Assembly: GCA_035283685.1 (NCBI GenBank)
Contig: DATETJ010000005.1
Span: 1-43,926, forward strand
Reading direction: 5' to 3'
DNA: 43,926 nt
From: Candidatus Bathyarchaeia archaeon
GTDB taxonomy: Archaea; Thermoproteota; Bathyarchaeia; Bathyarchaeales; Bathyarchaeaceae
How positions within the stretch are numbered: the first letter of the stretch is position 1; each line of letters opens with the position of its first letter. The notes below the pieces were generated by a model. The model was not told where the DNA came from, did not search any database, and worked only from the letters and a program-made list of their open reading frames with translations. Below are positions 33,210-42,537 of the stretch, piece by piece. The position numbers were made by a program, and so were the translations under genes.

Positions 33210-33259
33210 GGTTTGGCGTCCGTTTTATAGATCGGGCTATCTACCATGACAGGAGTATT

Positions 33260-33270
33260 TTATTTAAACT
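33260..33270 (-). promoter_or_regulatory. TATA box of the S13 operon
   Basis: The minus strand reads AGTTTAAATAAAAT, a near-consensus archaeal TATA box about 55 bp upstream of the S13 start, preceded by an A-rich BRE. It probably drives the whole S13-S4-S11-Rpo3-L18e-L13-S9 operon. Confidence 0.65.
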
Positions 33271-33428
33271 TTGCTGGTTTCATGTTGAAGAGTTTCTGGG
33301 GGCGTTAGTATGAGTGCTGAAAAATTTTTTTGCGGTGAAAGTTAGACTTTTTTGTTTGTGTTCTGAGGGCTGTTTTTGTTTCGGTTTGGGAGTTGGGTTC
33401 TGTTTGTGTGTTTTTTGCGTGGTGTTCT

Positions 33429-36233: not shown

Positions 36234-37430
36234 TTGAATGACTCCGTTTCTTTGGCTCTAGTAGTCAGCGCCCTAATCATAGTGATAGGATTCTTAAGCA
36301 ACTACCTTTTCGAGCGCACAGGGTTACCTGACATGCTGTTTTTGATAATTCTTGGATATGTAGTTGGGCCTCTGCTGCGTCTTCTTGACTCATCTGTCTC
36401 AACATTGGCTCCGTATCTAGCCGCTTTGGCGTTGGTCTTCATTTTGTTTGACGGTGGCATGAAGATGAACATTCGTCAAGTTTTGTCTCAGAGTCCTAGA
36501 GCAATACTGCTTGCTGTGTTGGGCTTCTTGTTCAGTTTGTTGGTGATTGCTCTTTTTATGAGGTATCTTGTCGGAGTTCCATTACGTTATGGAATCTTGT
36601 TTGGAAGCATCTTCGGCGGCAGCAGTTCCATCGTGGTAGTTTCGCTTGCCCAAAAGATTGACGTCAGTGAGAAGTGTTCCACGATACTCACTTTAGAGTC
36701 AGCAATTACTGACATATTGTGTATCGTGGTTTCTTTGGCTGTTATAGGAGTAATCTTGACAGGACAAGTAAATTACATCGTTGTGACCGCAGACATCGTT
36801 ACCAAATTTTTAATTGGAGCTTTTGTCGGTGTAGTCTTAGGGTTTGCATGGCTAATTTTGCTTAAAGGAGTGGTTAAACTGCCCTTTTCATACATGCTGA
36901 CACTGGCCGTTGTGCTGTTTGGATACACGGCGGCAGAATATCTAGGCGGGAGTGGAGCGTTGAGTTCACTGCTCTTCGGTCTGATACTGGGTAATGAAAG
37001 TGAAATACTTAGGGCGTTTAAACGTGAAAGACAAAGTGAAGTTGCTGTTGATGCAGGCTTGAGGCGTTTTGAGTCGGAGATAGCGTTTTTGATAAGAACG
37101 TTCTTCTTTGTTTTCTTAGGCTTGATAGTAATGATTTCTAACGTGTGGGTTCTGTTCCTTGGAGCGATTTTGTCGCTTCTGCTTTTGCTCGTTAGATTTG
37201 GAGCAGTGACACTCGCGACTCTTCACAGTGAACTGCGTGAAGAACGACCTATCATGGGCGTAGTTCTGACTCGAGGTTTAGCTGCCGCTGTTTTGGCAAC
37301 ACTACCACTTCAATACGGCCTACTCTACTCAGACGTTTACATCAACCTAGCAGTGATCGTTATAATCTCCACCGCAGTCATCGCAACCGTAGGCACATTT
37401 GCACTACGTACAAAAAGAGGGAGGCGCTGA
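36234..37430 (+). CDS. Cation/proton antiporter (CPA family)
   Basis: A 398-aa integral membrane protein with about 12 predicted helices. The early motif NYLFERTGLPDMLFLIILGY, followed by a small residue-rich VVGPLLRLL, matches the sodium/potassium-proton antiporter family; LFDGGMKMNIRQV and SAITDILCIVVSLAVIG contain the family-conserved acidic residues. Later GGSGALSSLLFGLILGNES precedes a hydrophilic loop with RERQSEVAVDAGLRR. The start is TTG at 36234. It probably exchanges Na+ or K+ for H+ at the cell membrane. It stands alone. Confidence 0.87.
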   Translation: MNDSVSLALVVSALIIVIGFLSNYLFERTGLPDMLFLIILGYVVGPLLRLLDSSVSTLAPYLAALALVFILFDGGMKMNIRQVLSQSPRAILLAVLGFLFSLLVIALFMRYLVGVPLRYGILFGSIFGGSSSIVVVSLAQKIDVSEKCSTILTLESAITDILCIVVSLAVIGVILTGQVNYIVVTADIVTKFLIGAFVGVVLGFAWLILLKGVVKLPFSYMLTLAVVLFGYTAAEYLGGSGALSSLLFGLILGNESEILRAFKRERQSEVAVDAGLRRFESEIAFLIRTFFFVFLGLIVMISNVWVLFLGAILSLLLLLVRFGAVTLATLHSELREERPIMGVVLTRGLAAAVLATLPLQYGLLYSDVYINLAVIVIISTAVIATVGTFALRTKRGRR

Positions 37431-37638
37431 AATAAATAAGCAGATTACCTTTGACTCGAAGCTTCGTATGTCCTTCAGTTTCAGTTGATTTGTGTCATGA
37501 AATGCAAAGCTTCGCCTACTAGCAGTTTGTTGGTAACTCTGTATGTTCATTCAAAGTAAAAAATCGCTTGAACTTTTGTATGCAACTCTTTTTGAACAGG
37601 ATTTTTTATGAGTGGCAAAAATGAATGCGTGAAGCAAA

Positions 37639-37648
37639 TTTTAAATAG
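37639..37648 (+). promoter_or_regulatory. TATA box of the 15-aa Lys-rich peptide gene
   Basis: TTTTAAATAG, 36 bp before the GTG start, within AGCAAATTTTAA (37632-37643) that is identical to the block upstream of the second copy at 42112-42123. Confidence 0.65.
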
Positions 37649-37683
37649 AAATTGTTTCCTATTGTCGGTTTGAGGTTGCAATA

Positions 37684-37731
37684 GTGCCGAAGAAGGCAAA
37701 AGGGAAGAAGAAAAAGGGCGGAAAGAAGTAA
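37684..37731 (+). CDS. 15-aa lysine/glycine-rich micropeptide, copy 1
   Basis: Below normal ORF thresholds. It starts at a GTG with a TGAGG Shine-Dalgarno 8 bp upstream and reads MPKKAKGKKKKGGKK, then TAA. Nine of 15 residues are Lys. Its codons, Shine-Dalgarno and TATA are conserved in a second copy at 42164-42226, which supports real expression. A T-rich run after GC (37763-37776) could terminate it. The likely role is a charge-based interaction with RNA or DNA; no family is recognised. It resembles tails of ribosomal or chromatin proteins, but no body domain exists. Confidence 0.7.
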   Translation: MPKKAKGKKKKGGKK

Positions 37732-37762
37732 GCAATTAAGAGACTAACAACGTCTAAACTAA

Positions 37763-37776
37763 ACCCCGTTTTTTTC
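37763..37776 (+). terminator. Probable T-run terminator after the 15-aa peptide gene
   Basis: CCCCG followed by a run of seven T between the two micropeptide genes. Archaeal transcription ends at such T-runs, and the next TATA box (37788-37797) follows at once, so each peptide is a separate transcript. Confidence 0.4.
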
Positions 37777-37787
37777 TGAATAACACA

Positions 37788-37797
37788 TTTATATTTA
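37788..37797 (+). promoter_or_regulatory. TATA box of the 29-aa basic peptide gene
   Basis: TTTATATTTA about 27-36 bp before the TTG start at 37824, so the mRNA would have almost no leader. Confidence 0.55.
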
Positions 37798-37823
37798 GCA
37801 TACGTTAGGTGCAGTGAAGAAAT

Positions 37824-37913
37824 TTGCCGTTCAAGAAGAAAGCTAAGAAGAAAAAACGCAGGGCGCGTGCACGCGCTAAGAAACAGAAAAGAAAGAAATC
37901 CGCGCCACGATAA
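37824..37913 (+). CDS. 29-aa lysine/arginine-rich basic peptide
   Basis: A very small ORF starting at TTG 37824, in a frame closed by a TGA three codons upstream, ending TAA. It begins MPFKKKAKKKKRRARAR, continues with AKKQKRKK and ends SAPR. Twenty of 29 residues are Lys or Arg. The size and charge recall ribosomal protein eL41, a 25-37-aa basic helix, but the Trp typical of many eL41 proteins is absent. It has its own TATA and follows the 15-aa Lys/Gly peptide. A role at the ribosome or on nucleic acid is inference. Confidence 0.6.
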   Translation: MPFKKKAKKKKRRARARAKKQKRKKSAPR

Positions 37914-38015
37914 AACCAAACTTTTCTTTCTGACGATTTAATAACACATAAAATTTATTAGTTGCCAATCTTGAGTTTGGGTCGCAAGTGGTGACTCCGG
38001 GCACTGTCATTTGAA

Positions 38016-38840
38016 GTGCAAGAATTACCCGACATTATAAGATTAATCATCTTACTAAGTTTTAAGAGAGGAGAACATCTCACAAAAGACCAAATCATTC
38101 ATAGAATTGACAAATATTTAGCACGTAACACCGCCATTGAACCCGCGGATCTAGAAGAAGCTCTGACCGAGATGGCATCTGAGAATGTCGTGGCTTTCAC
38201 TAATGAAGTTTTTACTCTAACAAATGAGGGAATTAGGCTCAGCAAGCACTGGAAAAACTTGCTAACTAAGAGAGAACATATACTTGAATTCATTGCCGGA
38301 TTGGCGGATGGCACTATCACTGGTCTTGTTATCGTCCTTTCAGCGCTTCTAGTGAGTTTGACATCGCGTACAATGATATGGACTGCTCTTCTGGGCTTGT
38401 CAGCAGTATCGATAACAAACTTTTCAAGTTTTATGCTAGGTAGCAAAACAGAAGACATCGCGGACGCGCTTTCTCTCAGGGCCTTAATGGAATACAGTGT
38501 GAATGACATATTAGACAAAAGGGAAAGAACAAAATCCCTCAGGCTCGTCAAGGATTTATTTTCAATCCTTAGAAGGCGAAGAACCAGAACGAATTTGCGG
38601 GCTGCGTTGACCTGTAGCATTACAACATTTTCTGTAGGCATACTGCCAGTAGCGTTTTTCTCAACTCTTCCGGCTCCTTTTAATGTATTCTTCTCATTTG
38701 GCGTGATAGTTGCAATGTTGGGAATCCTCATTCGTTATCGCTCGGAGAAATCGAAAGTACACTGGAAAACAACCTTGGGAGAAACACTTATCATCATAGC
38801 AATCGCAGTTATCGCGTCATTAATACTTGGGAGCATTTAG
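38016..38840 (+). CDS. wHTH-VIT/CCC1-like membrane protein fusion
   Basis: A 274-aa two-part protein starting at GTG 38016. Residues 1-80 look like a winged helix: PDIIRLIILLSFKRGEHLTK, EEALTEMASENVVAFTNEVF, TLTNEGIRLSKHWK. Residues 85-274 are a five-helix membrane domain with the VIT-type motif LADGTITGLVIVLSALLV, then NFSSFMLGSKTEDIADALSL, followed by helices at about 205-225, 228-245 and 255-272. VIT/CCC1 proteins move Fe2+ or Mn2+. The wHTH fusion suggests a metal- or redox-linked DNA-binding switch on the membrane, which is inference. Confidence 0.7.
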   Translation: MQELPDIIRLIILLSFKRGEHLTKDQIIHRIDKYLARNTAIEPADLEEALTEMASENVVAFTNEVFTLTNEGIRLSKHWKNLLTKREHILEFIAGLADGTITGLVIVLSALLVSLTSRTMIWTALLGLSAVSITNFSSFMLGSKTEDIADALSLRALMEYSVNDILDKRERTKSLRLVKDLFSILRRRRTRTNLRAALTCSITTFSVGILPVAFFSTLPAPFNVFFSFGVIVAMLGILIRYRSEKSKVHWKTTLGETLIIIAIAVIASLILGSI

Positions 38841-38875
38841 GCTTATATATGCTGTTTAGGTGGTTTAAGCTTTTG

Positions 38876-39382
38876 TCAATCCTGCAAGAACCCCTGCAAA
38901 ATCTTAGAAGATAAAATTGATAGGATTCTTAATGCTAGGAAGAAAATCCAAATTAGAATGACTATTAAAACAATGCCGCTGATCGCAAAGTGAAAACTTG
39001 TTAAGAACGGAAAATATAGCGCGTAAACGATGAGAACAAAGATGACGTAAAAGACATATTTGAAAAGAGTCAATGCGTCCTCTTGGTTTATTCCCCGTTT
39101 TGAACCGTATTTCCTTGCCGGAAAAAAAGAAAACGCATCAATCAGTTTTTTGAAACCGAGGACAGCTCGAAACATAAAGATTGTGAATGCTGTGAAAACG
39201 ACCAGGGAACATAGCAGTCCAGTTTGCCAGTTTAAGGAGTTAGCTAATGGTATGAAAACCAAGATTCCGAAAAGCCATATTATGATGGCGGTGAGGAAAT
39301 TATGAAACGTAGCTGGGCCATGGCTTCTTAAACATTGAGCAAGGTCATCGATTTCGCGTCTTATTTGGGTTGACATATTCAA
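38876..39382 (-). CDS. Small four-helix membrane protein, paralogue of 39661-40275
   Basis: A 168-aa membrane protein, last of a three-gene operon. The start could be the ATG two codons in (MSTQIRREI). Hydrophobic helices lie at about 28-47, 52-72, 105-128 and 130-152. It aligns along its length with the first gene of the operon: AIIIWLFGILVFIPL against AIVIWLVGQMVFIPI, and IVLIVILIWIFFLALRIL against IVLILIVIWAIFALWRSC. The family is not recognised. The first helix pair is linked by the loop AFSFFPARKYGSKRG. Confidence 0.68.
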   Translation of the reverse strand: MNMSTQIRREIDDLAQCLRSHGPATFHNFLTAIIIWLFGILVFIPLANSLNWQTGLLCSLVVFTAFTIFMFRAVLGFKKLIDAFSFFPARKYGSKRGINQEDALTLFKYVFYVIFVLIVYALYFPFLTSFHFAISGIVLIVILIWIFFLALRILSILSSKILQGFLQD

Positions 39383-39393
39383 TATCCTCTCCT

Positions 39394-39657
39394 CTAAAGT
39401 GGTTTTGCAACCTTTTCCACTAATCTATAAATGAAGTATAAGATCACGGGCACACAGATCAATACAATGACAAAACCTGCGATGATGAATAATGATCTTG
39501 TAATCTCAAGAGAGATTCCAGTCTGATAACTTGTCGTCGCGATGATCCAATCGTAACTTTCCGGAAAGTATTGCTTTATGACAATGAAAAATGCAAGATC
39601 AACTGTGAGGATGGTCAAAAAAATGGAGATTTTTGATAATACCCGCAATGCTATCAC
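39394..39657 (-). CDS. Small two-helix membrane protein
   Basis: An 87-aa protein starting at a GTG (39657), four bp after the stop of the upstream gene. Helices are at about 8-27 (SIFLTILTVDLAFFIVI) and 53-80 (SLFIIAGFVIVLICVPVILY). The order helix-extracellular loop-helix resembles half of its two larger neighbours, so it may be a cut-down relative. The function is unknown. Confidence 0.6.
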   Translation of the reverse strand: MIALRVLSKISIFLTILTVDLAFFIVIKQYFPESYDWIIATTSYQTGISLEITRSLFIIAGFVIVLICVPVILYFIYRLVEKVAKPL

Positions 39658-39660
39658 TGC

Positions 39661-40275
39661 TTATGCTTTCTTTGCGCGGCTCTCTAGCTCGTCAGCCCAT
39701 TTTGAGGTGTATCGACCGATCTCCGCAGCTATTGCTCTGCAGCTTCTCCATAATGCAAAGATAGCCCAGATTACAATGAGGATCAAGACGATTGCAGGTA
39801 TCGCTGGGTGAATGTCTCCGAGATATTGCGCGAACAGCAGATAGGTCAATGACACAATGATGACGTATAGTACGCCGTCTAAGGCTATTCTATAGTGTCT
39901 AAAGGATTCCACATTGACTTCACCGCTCGCCTTACCGAATTGGTACGCCAAGACGCCTGCGATTCCACCAGTTAATCTTCGAATGTCAATGAATACCGTG
40001 AAAATTATGATGGCCAATGCTACCACGAAGATGAAGCTGATGATTGCGTGCACTGGATAGCCGAGAAACACTTCCTCCATTCCTTTCGAAATGGGTATGA
40101 ACACCATCTGTCCGACGAGCCAAATCACTATTGCGGCTCCGATGGAGAGGGCAACTCTGGCGCCGACTTCGCGCATAGCCCTTGCAGATTCAGTGTATGC
40201 TTCCGAGCCAAAAGTCTCTATTCTTCTCTCTTCGCCTCTAGGTTCCTCTGCTTTCGGTTCTTCTTTCTTAGCCAT
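39661..40275 (-). CDS. Four-helix membrane protein with charged N-terminal tail
   Basis: A 204-aa protein, first gene of the operon. I place the start at the ATG at 40275 (MAKKEEPKAEEPRGEE); the frame runs three codons further to a GTG. After a charged tail (1-35) come helices at about 44-66, 78-98, 130-150 and 155-175. IWLVGQMVFIPISKGMEEVF and IVLILIVIWAIFALW are shared with the paralogue at 38876-39382. A GTGATA-like Shine-Dalgarno is next to the ATG. The family is not recognised. Confidence 0.72.
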   Translation of the reverse strand: MAKKEEPKAEEPRGEERRIETFGSEAYTESARAMREVGARVALSIGAAIVIWLVGQMVFIPISKGMEEVFLGYPVHAIISFIFVVALAIIIFTVFIDIRRLTGGIAGVLAYQFGKASGEVNVESFRHYRIALDGVLYVIIVSLTYLLFAQYLGDIHPAIPAIVLILIVIWAIFALWRSCRAIAAEIGRYTSKWADELESRAKKA

Positions 40276-40308
40276 TTTTATCACTGAGCAATAAACATCA
40301 CTGTTAAC

Positions 40309-40319
40309 TTATAAATATT
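40309..40319 (-). promoter_or_regulatory. TATA box of the membrane-protein operon
   Basis: TTATAAATATT, read on the minus strand as AATATTTATAA, about 35-45 bp before the ATG at 40275. Confidence 0.6.
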
Positions 40320-40374
40320 CCTTATTTACTATACTATACTCCCAAAGGTTGGAAGTATAGGTCAGGACCTACAG

Positions 40375-40554
40375 TTATCCCCGTCCGCGACATTCCCGAA
40401 CTTTAGAAGGCCAACAGCCATAAGCATGACTCCTAATTGCAACAGGGCTAATCAGAGGTTCGACTTTTATGGAAAGGACAGCGTCGGCAACATTGTCACC
40501 GATGATGAAAACCGGCATCACCCTTCGAAAATGGCGCAATTTTTTCCTTGTCAT
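40375..40554 (-). CDS. Possible small protein (59 aa), uncertain
   Basis: An open frame just under the usual length cut-off, 33 bp after the stop of the Ca/Na antiporter on the same strand. It begins MTRKKLRHFRRVMPVFIIGD, with a hydrophobic stretch (MPVFIIGDNVADAVLSI) and then EPLISPVAI, and ends VRECRGRG. No Shine-Dalgarno or family was recognised. The residue mix is reasonable for a protein, but it could be a chance ORF. The opposite-strand frame covering the same DNA is also open, which lowers confidence. Confidence 0.3.
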   Translation of the reverse strand: MTRKKLRHFRRVMPVFIIGDNVADAVLSIKVEPLISPVAIRSHAYGCWPSKVRECRGRG

Positions 40555-40587
40555 ATCAAGGCTCGTTCTCGTTCAGACTCGGCTTGA

Positions 40588-41574
40588 CTATGGGCGTAAA
40601 GATATTATGCCGAGAGTTGTCGCCAAGAAAAGTACGTATATGAAGAGCAGAATCGCGCCCTCTTTCCAGCCCAACCTCTCCATCGACAAGAAATACCATA
40701 AAAATAGGTTGGCGATGAGAGAAAAAATGACCAAATCGGTGAAAAAGACCATGTCCTTCACCGTAAACGGCGAAGCAATCAAAGTAACCCCCAAAATCAA
40801 TGTTATGTTCATGAAGCCGCTTCCTATGATGTTACCTAAGGCTAACGCTGAGTGTCCCTTAAGAAAAGCCTTCACGCTAATGGAGAATTCTGGCAGACTG
40901 GTGCCAAACGCAATAACAGTGGCGCCGATCAAGGCCTTTGACAAGCCTGCAAATTCCGCTATAACAACTGCGGACTCAACTATAAAATAAGCGCTTAGAA
41001 TAACGCCTGCGACACCCACGAAGGTGAGCGCGACGTATAGGCGCAATTTCCTCCTCATATCCTCAGAAACCTCTTCACTCTCTCCAGCTGGGATTCTAAT
41101 CTTGGACAACTGATATGTGTATAAGCCAAAAATCAACAACAAAATCAAGCCAACAAACCAACTTGCATAAGCTAGATACACCAACGACAAGGGAATGATC
41201 GAAGCCACGAAGAGACCGAAGTAGAGGCTTCCAAACTCTCTCTTAGCCATGGTAGGGATCATTTTCACATTACGTGAACGCCCCAATGAAGCAACGAGAA
41301 GAGCAGATAACCCGACTATTAGACAAACGTTCACAACGTTTGAGCCAATGACGTTTCCAACCGAAATCGCACCCTCGCCGCCAAACGCGGCGAAAACAGC
41401 CACACTCAACTCGGGCAAAGACGTAGAAAAGGCTATCAAAATAAAACCTACGGTCATTTTTCCAAGCCCAGTTATGTCCGAGACTTTGATTGCGTTAGTG
41501 ATAGTCACGTGACTAGAGTAGTTAAGCACTATCAAAAAAATGCCGAGAAGGAGCAAGCTTACTATTATGTCCAT
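40588..41574 (-). CDS. Ca2+/Na+ antiporter (CaCA family)
   Basis: A 328-aa cation exchanger with ten hydrophobic helices in two inverted repeats. Both alpha-repeats are visible: GFILIAFSTSLPELSVAVFA with the following GNVIGSNVVNVCLIVG, and GATVIAFGTSLPEFSISVKA with GNIIGSGFMNITLILG. The G-T/S-S-L-P-E and G-N-x-x-G-S motifs hold the ion-binding Glu. A cytoplasmic loop (KIRIPAGESEEVSEDMRRKL) separates the halves. It exchanges cytosolic Ca2+ for Na+ or H+. Confidence 0.94.
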   Translation of the reverse strand: MDIIVSLLLLGIFLIVLNYSSHVTITNAIKVSDITGLGKMTVGFILIAFSTSLPELSVAVFAAFGGEGAISVGNVIGSNVVNVCLIVGLSALLVASLGRSRNVKMIPTMAKREFGSLYFGLFVASIIPLSLVYLAYASWFVGLILLLIFGLYTYQLSKIRIPAGESEEVSEDMRRKLRLYVALTFVGVAGVILSAYFIVESAVVIAEFAGLSKALIGATVIAFGTSLPEFSISVKAFLKGHSALALGNIIGSGFMNITLILGVTLIASPFTVKDMVFFTDLVIFSLIANLFLWYFLSMERLGWKEGAILLFIYVLFLATTLGIISLRP

Positions 41575-41778
41575 GCTAAACCCTCACAAAGATTGGCAAA
41601 AACAAGTGCGGCGATAGAATGTGCGCCATTCGCTTTCATCCTCGAAAGTGCCAGACGTTTGGTTAGCTTATAACTATTACTAAAAGGTTATAAGTATTCT
41701 CATTAAACTATATTGATTGAGTCATGAAAATCTTATAGGGTGGTTCTCGAATTCCATATACTATAAGAAGGCGTCTAT

Positions 41779-42060
41779 TTGGCTTCAGGGGAATTGGTGG
41801 CCACAGGCGAAGAGGCGTTAAGAGTGGCTGATGCGCTGACTTCGGCGAGCTTCAGGATACTGCGATTGCTTTCGAAGGAGCGCCTGGATGTTTCGAGGAT
41901 CGCCGAAAGGTTAGAGCTGAGCGAGGCCTACATAAGTGAGCAGGTACGCGTCCTCGAAGAATTGAAGTTAATCAAAGTGGGCTACCAGCGGGGCAAAAGG
42001 GGAATTAGAAAGATGTGCGAATTGGCAGTCAAAAAAATCACCATAGTGATTACGCCGTGA
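41779..42060 (+). CDS. Winged-helix (ArsR/MarR-like) DNA-binding regulator
   Basis: A 93-aa protein from TTG 41779. The helix-turn-helix is clear: EEALRVADALTSASFRILRL, SKERLDVSRIAERLELSEAY, ISEQVRVLEELKLIKVGYQR, followed by a wing (GKRGIRKMCELAVKKITIVI). Length and pattern fit ArsR-type or archaeal Lrs14-like regulators. The ligand is unknown. It lies upstream of the Lys-rich peptide/PRC-barrel pair on the same strand, 104 bp away, and downstream of the CaCA gene on the opposite strand. Confidence 0.82.
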   Translation: MASGELVATGEEALRVADALTSASFRILRLLSKERLDVSRIAERLELSEAYISEQVRVLEELKLIKVGYQRGKRGIRKMCELAVKKITIVITP

Positions 42061-42118
42061 TTTTGTCTATCTGTCTACTTGAGTAAGGGCACAAGCTTGG
42101 TTCTTAATTTGCAGCAAA

Positions 42119-42128
42119 TTTTAATAAA
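42119..42128 (+). promoter_or_regulatory. TATA box of the 20-aa Lys-rich peptide/PRC-barrel transcript
   Basis: TTTTAATAAA, 36 bp before the GTG at 42164, the same spacing as at 37639-37686. It lies inside the shared block AGCAAATTTTAA. Confidence 0.65.
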
Positions 42129-42163
42129 AAAAAATTCCCAATTGTTTGTTTGAGGTCGCAATC

Positions 42164-42226
42164 GTGTCGAAGCGCGCAAAAGGAAAGAAGAAAAAGGGCG
42201 GAAAGAAATTCGCACTGCAGAAATGA
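42164..42226 (+). CDS. 20-aa lysine/glycine-rich micropeptide, copy 2
   Basis: A GTG-started ORF reading MSKRAKGKKKKGGKKFALQK, with the same TGAGG Shine-Dalgarno and TATA arrangement as copy 1. Codons of the AKGKKKKGGKK core are almost identical in both copies. Copy 2 has an extra FALQK end, and its TGA overlaps the ATG of the PRC-barrel gene as ATGA, so the two are translationally coupled. The dependence of the PRC-barrel gene on this peptide suggests a joint role (inference). Confidence 0.7.
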   Translation: MSKRAKGKKKKGGKKFALQK

Positions 42227-42537
42227 GTTTGGAGGAGGTGAATGAGAAGTTGGTTAATGTGAACACGCTCTTAGGAAAGAATGTGATAGGCGCCGGCGCT
42301 AAACTGATCGGCAACGTAATCGGCGTCGAGGCAGAGTTGCTTCCAGAATGGAAAATCACTCACTTGCACGTAAGCCTAACGGAGGAAGCCACAAGAGACC
42401 TCGGGTACAAAAAACCATTTTTTGGCTCGGTTGGAGTCCTGCTTCCAGTATCCCTCGCTAAAGCAGTTGCAGACGTAATAACTCTAGACAAGAAACTTGA
42501 AGAACTCAGAGACGTAGTTGAGCCGATGAAAAAATAA
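42223..42537 (+). CDS. PRC-barrel domain protein
   Basis: A 104-aa protein starting at the ATG inside ATGA. PRC-barrel pattern: LLGKNVIGAGAKLIGNVIGV, EWKITHLHVSLTEEATRDLG and KKPFFGSVGVLLPVSLAKAV, then a helix ITLDKKLEELRDVVEPMKK. PRC barrels bind RNA or proteins (RimM) or act in cell division (archaeal CdpB). Translation is coupled to the 20-aa basic peptide. Confidence 0.82.
   Translation: MSLEEVNEKLVNVNTLLGKNVIGAGAKLIGNVIGVEAELLPEWKITHLHVSLTEEATRDLGYKKPFFGSVGVLLPVSLAKAVADVITLDKKLEELRDVVEPMKK

Follow-up and report, generated by a model that had tools for sequence, protein, structure and literature searches.

Histone tails and the C-terminal domains of linker histone H1 are disordered and rich in Lys, Ala, Pro, and Thr, and lysine-containing N-terminal tails have been reported for a few archaeal histones, namely those of Bathyarchaeota B23 and Heimdallarchaeota (PMC6136690). 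In bacteria, the histone H1-like proteins AlgP and PhaF carry tails with KPAA repeats, and KPAA peptides bind DNA (PMC9239181). A small lysine-rich candidate nucleoid protein of 74 amino acids (aa) is also on record in the archaeon Methanomassiliicoccus luminyensis (PMC7613761). Here we describe a family of still smaller genes of Bathyarchaeia, each encoding a lysine-rich micropeptide of 15–20 aa, starting from two copies, A and B, in contig DATETJ010000005.1 of a Candidatus Bathyarchaeia archaeon (43,926 nucleotides (nt), all of it analysed and called the window below; contig C5 of a 2.28-Mb genome, G000, in 12 contigs). We place these micropeptides among the small basic nucleic-acid-binding proteins, the new feature being the bare tail as a separate gene, and, judging from sequence, we read them as translated polycations that would neutralise nucleic acid, with about an even chance that their target is chromatin.

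The micropeptides resemble the histone and H1 tails in their Lys/Ala/Pro/Thr-rich composition and in their expected disorder, and one subfamily is encoded head-to-head with genes of tailless archaeal histones. Unlike those tails, each of them is a separate, unfused product with its own promoter and without a histone fold, and most loci are not close to histones. They are not archaeal histones of the PF00808 family either, with 15–20 aa against a fold of about 65 residues, the PF00808 matches being separate histone genes. With AlgP and PhaF they share the composition (Lys 58%, Ala 19%, Thr 5%, and Pro 4% over 50 peptides, with a charge of +6 to +10) and the expected charge-based binding of DNA; however, the AlgP and PhaF tails are repeat domains of more than 100 aa on a folded part, whereas a whole micropeptide has about 16 aa and no anchor domain. 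The M. luminyensis protein is likewise small, basic, lysine-rich, and archaeal, but the micropeptides have about a fifth of its length and could not accommodate a fold. Another very short and strongly basic protein is eL41 of the ribosome, which is highly conserved and single-copy in most genomes, but it is arginine-rich, whereas the micropeptides are lysine/alanine-rich, variable, and often multi-copy. With hmmscan, copy B (20 aa) and a 26-aa relative gave no Pfam match, HMMER having low power at such length, and neither Pfam nor PDB matched the longer members tested, sequences this short giving little power. A literature search that covered few subscription papers returned nothing on such peptides in Bathyarchaeia.

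Copy A (MPKKAKGKKKKGGKK) lies at positions 37684–37731 of the forward strand, with a GTG start and a TAA stop, and copy B (MSKRAKGKKKKGGKKFALQK) at 42164–42226 of the same strand, with a GTG start and a TGA stop that overlaps a downstream ATG (as ATGA); these frames and starts are as an earlier note on this DNA had them. Promoter included, the two copies match without gaps at an offset of 4480, with 78/96 identical positions (39/51 upstream, at 37633–37683, and 39/45 in the open reading frame (ORF)), and AGCAAATTTTAA is exact in both. The similarity stops at both flanks (17/73 before and 28/72 after), and it is not a product of chance, because copy A, taken as a query against the whole window, finds nothing else better than 44/96 on the forward and 45/96 on the reverse strand, and reaches at most 47/96 in 100 Markov-shuffled windows. 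Each copy has the Shine-Dalgarno (SD) sequence TTGAGGT (37670–37676 for A and 42150–42156 for B) with the GTG 7 nt downstream. The promoter of A, with a TFB recognition element (BRE)/TATA-like element, is AGCAAATTTTAAATA (37633–37647), strongly conserved over 49 aligned units, and that of B is AGCAAATTTTAATAA (42113–42127), with a variant TATA. A wider promoter pattern has three matches in the window, a number that none of 100 shuffles gave. In the whole genome, CAAATTTTAAATAVAAAW with one mismatch allowed is found at only two places, copy A and a third copy, C, which starts at C2:193306, encodes MAKKAKGKTKKGGKKK, and is preceded by CAACAAATTTTAAATACAAAA.

Bathyarchaeia have a real, overlooked family of tiny protein genes, to which copies A and B belong. 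When the peptide and a degenerate codon pattern were used as queries, relatives came up in two further families of the same order (f6 and f7), each with a comparable TATA region and GAGGT-N7-RTG in front. Two sequence-only profiles of the unit, R1 from 11 copies and R2 from 49, were then run across 257 genomes of the class, and strong matches (E<1e-7) were found in 46 genomes of Bathyarchaeia, 44 of them in f7, one in f6, and one in f1. The collected set has 50 units with 44 distinct peptides of 15–20 aa, such as MPKKAKGKKKKGGKK, MAKAAKKETKKAKKKK, and MAKKPVKKEEKKAPAKKK, and the copy number per genome goes from none detected up to at least five. Weak profile matches (E about 1e-6 to 1e-3), where plausible Lys-rich peptides are mixed with unrelated proteins, were not counted as members. 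As an independent control, the exact promoter-SD-start pattern TTTTAAATA-N22-26-GAGGT-N7-RTGNCNAAR was searched in one genome of each of 84,980 species and gave 43 matching stretches. With one exception, a degenerate copy (L133, in genome G154), the Bathyarchaeal stretches open a Lys-rich ORF of 16–19 aa. None of the stretches in bacteria or other archaea opens a Lys-rich micro-ORF; they lead instead into normal longer proteins or into fragments only a few residues long. The dispersed family of free-standing polycations that the earlier note had proposed from the pair is thus borne out, and it is larger and older than the pair showed.

Translation of these micro-ORFs is strongly supported by the way in which they vary. 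Among the 29 distinct ORFs of 16 codons, 44% of the differing codons are synonymous, against 15 ± 5% (maximum 31%) in 200 column-shuffled controls and 13% and 5% in the other two frames, and variation at third codon positions is about double that at first or second ones. Differences in ORF length are whole codons; all three stop codons are used, both lysine codons are used, and the starts are 46 GTG and 4 ATG. In the 16-residue type, lysines 3, 6, 11, 14, 15, and 16 never change and lysine 10 hardly ever does, while positions 4–5, 8–9, and 12–13 vary between relatives and are at times acidic. Frame-breaking changes are absent from the copies except in the degenerate one of G154 (L133, also L073, on contig C17), which keeps the promoter, the SD, and the terminator and has its frame broken or shortened. 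Homologues with synonymous changes and a conserved SD in at least 45 genomes support the claim, made from A and B only, that these are expressed, selected genes that annotation missed. Standard gene callers have minimum lengths of around 30 codons and are therefore blind to them, and a promoter-to-start profile can recover such micropeptide genes where protein searches miss them. They would rank among the smallest autonomous protein genes conserved family-wide.

The layout around the ORF is equally regular. A GAGG-type SD stands exactly 7 nt from the start in 50 of the 52 places measured, the spacing being 7 nt in every copy that has a GAGG site, and copy C is the sole intact member without a recognisable SD. 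The TATA element lies about 44 nt upstream of the start codon in most units, and a T-run follows the stop in 49/50 units, usually beginning 27–32 nt after it; T5 after the stop is found in 45/50 units, against 18% of random background windows from the same loci. In copy A, the T-run TTTTTTTCT (37769–37777), a putative archaeal intrinsic terminator, is 37 nt past the stop. Given the TATA position and the T-run, the usual unit is therefore a stand-alone gene of about 150 bp with promoter, a short leader carrying the SD, micro-ORF, and T-run terminator. The only other A/B-like promoter of the window (33255–33275, reverse strand, with three mismatches) is found some 50 nt ahead of the S13-S4-S11-RNA polymerase operon. 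This is a hint that the micropeptide genes have promoters of the strong class that serves ribosomal operons. The micropeptide genes are predicted to be highly expressed.

The neighbours of the units are of four kinds. In the first, the most frequent unit of f7 is followed by pyrD-pyrK or a ferritin-like gene, and a gene of an ECF-type transporter or of a pterin-binding enzyme often lies ahead of it. The second kind is that of copy A, which is preceded by a Na+/H+ exchanger gene (36234–37430, forward strand; PF00999, E 9e-41); the same exchanger, with 58–62% identity, is found before the units of G144, G148, G158, and G165 and after those of G149 and G150. In the third kind, a MAKKPVKKEEKKAPAKKK-type unit is paired head-to-head with an archaeal histone gene, and three genomes together have six such pairs (G111:C27, C43, C44, and C79, G110:C23, and G112:C47). 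About 125 bp separate the two start codons at G111:C44, and the paired histones are short and tailless, such as MNELEIAVAPMHRLCKKAG... of that same locus. The 3.5-Mb genome G111 (L092, L179, L180, and L104) has five histone genes, four of which are in such divergent micropeptide cassettes, and the six cassettes are paralogous, with one or a few origins. Copies B and C and the units of G047 and G161 have other neighbours.

How, then, would such peptides work? Nearly all of their residues are Lys, Ala, Gly, Thr, or Pro, and with lysine dominant, many charges, and next to no hydrophobic residues, folding or membrane insertion is unlikely. They would act by charge, as disordered polycations that bind nucleic acid backbones in trans, and so charged a peptide can hardly fail to bind polyanions. 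In the function that we propose, the peptide would be a separate molecule alongside the tailless archaeal histones, and DNA would be neutralised and compacted as by a histone tail or a linker-histone tail. We favour DNA as the target because of the histone pairing, the H1-like composition, and the published binding of DNA by KPAA peptides, and we consider DNA as the main target, with compaction as the effect, to be evenly balanced between right and wrong; that a translated polycation is also a part of chromatin is something that we infer. If the micropeptides do act on chromatin, the "tail" is separated from the "histone", and a bare polycationic tail becomes testable by means of one tiny gene. 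More tentatively, and with the weight of our judgment leaning against it, the free lysine peptides of 16–20 residues may be histone tails kept as separate genes and supplied in trans to tailless histones, with the cassettes multiplied in some genomes, so that the cell could set the dose of tail separately from the histone core.

Several observations weigh against a role in chromatin. The histone pairing is known in one genus only (g29) and may stem from one or two ancestral pairings that were later duplicated, and neither the main f7 locus, before pyrD or the ferritin-like gene, nor the loci of A, B, and C have a histone neighbour. In ten genomes checked with the R1 profile, the other histones had no unit within 1.5 kb, although weak units may escape this profile, since the G111:C43 unit emerged with R2 only. 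Within f1, strong members were found in this genome only. Finally, a Lys-rich peptide will bind RNA or polyphosphate no less readily than DNA.

The most probable alternative is that the peptides are polycations binding RNA or the ribosome, for example tiny lineage-specific ribosomal proteins or assembly factors of the size of eL41. Size, charge, and an apparently strong promoter, of the kind that also stands just before the S13 operon, would suit a ribosomal protein. However, a copy number that ranges from none detected to at least five, the variable and sometimes acidic positions, the lack of any link to translation genes in the neighbourhoods identified, and the lack of Pfam or PDB matches for the longer members tested all speak against it, and we regard it as possible but improbable. 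The lysine-rich N-terminus of ribosomal protein S25e was considered as a source of the peptides, given that the pattern matches in G038 and G050 are S25e proteins, and was rejected: the S25e gene of G000 (C4:223706–223990) has another N-terminus and another upstream sequence, and the units end after 15–20 codons, with no winged-helix domain that would make them members of PF03297.

Less probable again, and in our view rather doubtful, is a role as general polyanion binders, either in polyamine-like charge buffering or as organisers of polyphosphate granules or condensates. The composition is like that of the lysine-rich AlgP tail, which is tied to polyphosphate granules as well as DNA (PMC9239181), and loci beside transporters and ferritin-like genes suggest no fixed pathway. 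Against this, the histone pairing points to DNA, and there is no polyphosphate gene among the neighbours identified, no systematic search having been made for one.

We judge it very unlikely that the micro-ORFs are cis-acting lysine-rich leader peptides, whose translation, through the lysine codons, would control whether transcription passes the T-run terminator and enters the next gene. It is true that the T-run lies at a near-constant distance past the stop and that a gene of the same strand often comes next, some 200 bp further on. Nevertheless, the downstream genes differ (pyrD, ferritin-like, exchanger, and others), none is a lysine gene, and they are sometimes convergent, the next ORF of G110b, G111c, and G145 being on the opposite strand; both lysine codons are used, copy B is without a T-run, and there is no conserved alternative RNA structure. 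More generally, no conserved RNA structure was found in the unit (consensus energy −0.07 kcal/mol, with no compensatory pair) and an Rfam search of it gave no match at E up to 0.1, and a structured noncoding RNA was rejected on these grounds.

Short cationic peptides can also act on membranes, but secreted antimicrobial or signalling peptides are a highly improbable explanation, because a signal sequence would not fit into them, the hydrophobic or aromatic residues of an amphipathic helix are almost entirely lacking, and no export or immunity gene is among the neighbours identified. Least credible of all is that there is no gene here, only low-complexity sequence that is alike by coincidence, or else a noncoding RNA whose promoter is conserved: Lys-rich sequence is indeed low in complexity, and unrelated proteins turn up among the weak model matches (E above about 1e-5), but the synonymous bias, the frame-preserving length changes, the fixed SD spacing, and the terminator recur across dozens of divergent units, with no RNA structure conserved.

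As for ancestry, A and B are paralogous and not a recent pair, so that the word "duplicated" in the earlier note misleads if it is taken to mean a recent event. Copy A resembles a unit of G051, whose genome belongs to another family, as closely (75/96) as it resembles B, and the window copies, on this sequence comparison, are therefore old paralogues or strongly constrained ones; a recent tandem duplication was rejected on the same figures. A mobile element was rejected as well, as no viral contig has the exact promoter-start pattern. To follow a vertical inheritance of A within f1, the exchanger was sought in the other 26 genomes of that family; it gave no match in 25 and one weak partial match, so A could not be traced by synteny within its own family and f7 was used instead. 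Loss in relatives or transfer from f7 are both possible explanations of the f1 distribution.

Copy B is atypical for the family, with its altered TATA, no T-run, extra sense codons, and a stop overlapping an ORF of 104 aa (42223–42537, forward strand), for which Pfam had no match and NCBIfam no credible one. This ORF is probably cotranscribed from the B promoter. The simplest reading, as we infer it, is that the B unit was probably turned into the first cistron of an operon with the 104-aa ORF, which would have captured the promoter.

Some smaller ORFs deserve mention. Behind copy A, a 29-aa Lys/Arg ORF with a TTG start (37824–37913, forward strand; MPFKKKAKKKKRRARARAKKQKRKKSAPR) has a TATA-like element of its own (ATTTATATTTA); it was discarded as a relative of the family or as eL41, with no homologue in the 257 genomes (E<0.05) and no Pfam or PDB match. 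The 26-aa relative mentioned above (L183; G153:C23:135963–136063) is an expanded member, MAKKTEKKTTAKKPVKKAAKKTTKKK, with a promoter of the same type upstream. Deeper Bathyarchaeia, in other families of the class, have weakly matching Lys-rich micro-ORFs (L184, L185, L186, L192, and L196), for example MASKKAKKAKKKK, MAKKKAKKTKAKTKKKKKAC, and MPRKCKGKKTTSKKKSSTKKTTKKKTTKKKK, which may reflect either homology or convergence. Beyond the class, small Lys-rich ORFs such as MAEKKPEKKGKKKK and MSKKAEKKKEEKKEEKKK appear in other classes of the phylum (L188, L189, and L190, in G310, G479, and G257), genes of this sort may be widespread and unannotated, and G479 also has a longer H1-like ORF, MARKRAKKTTKKRAKK....

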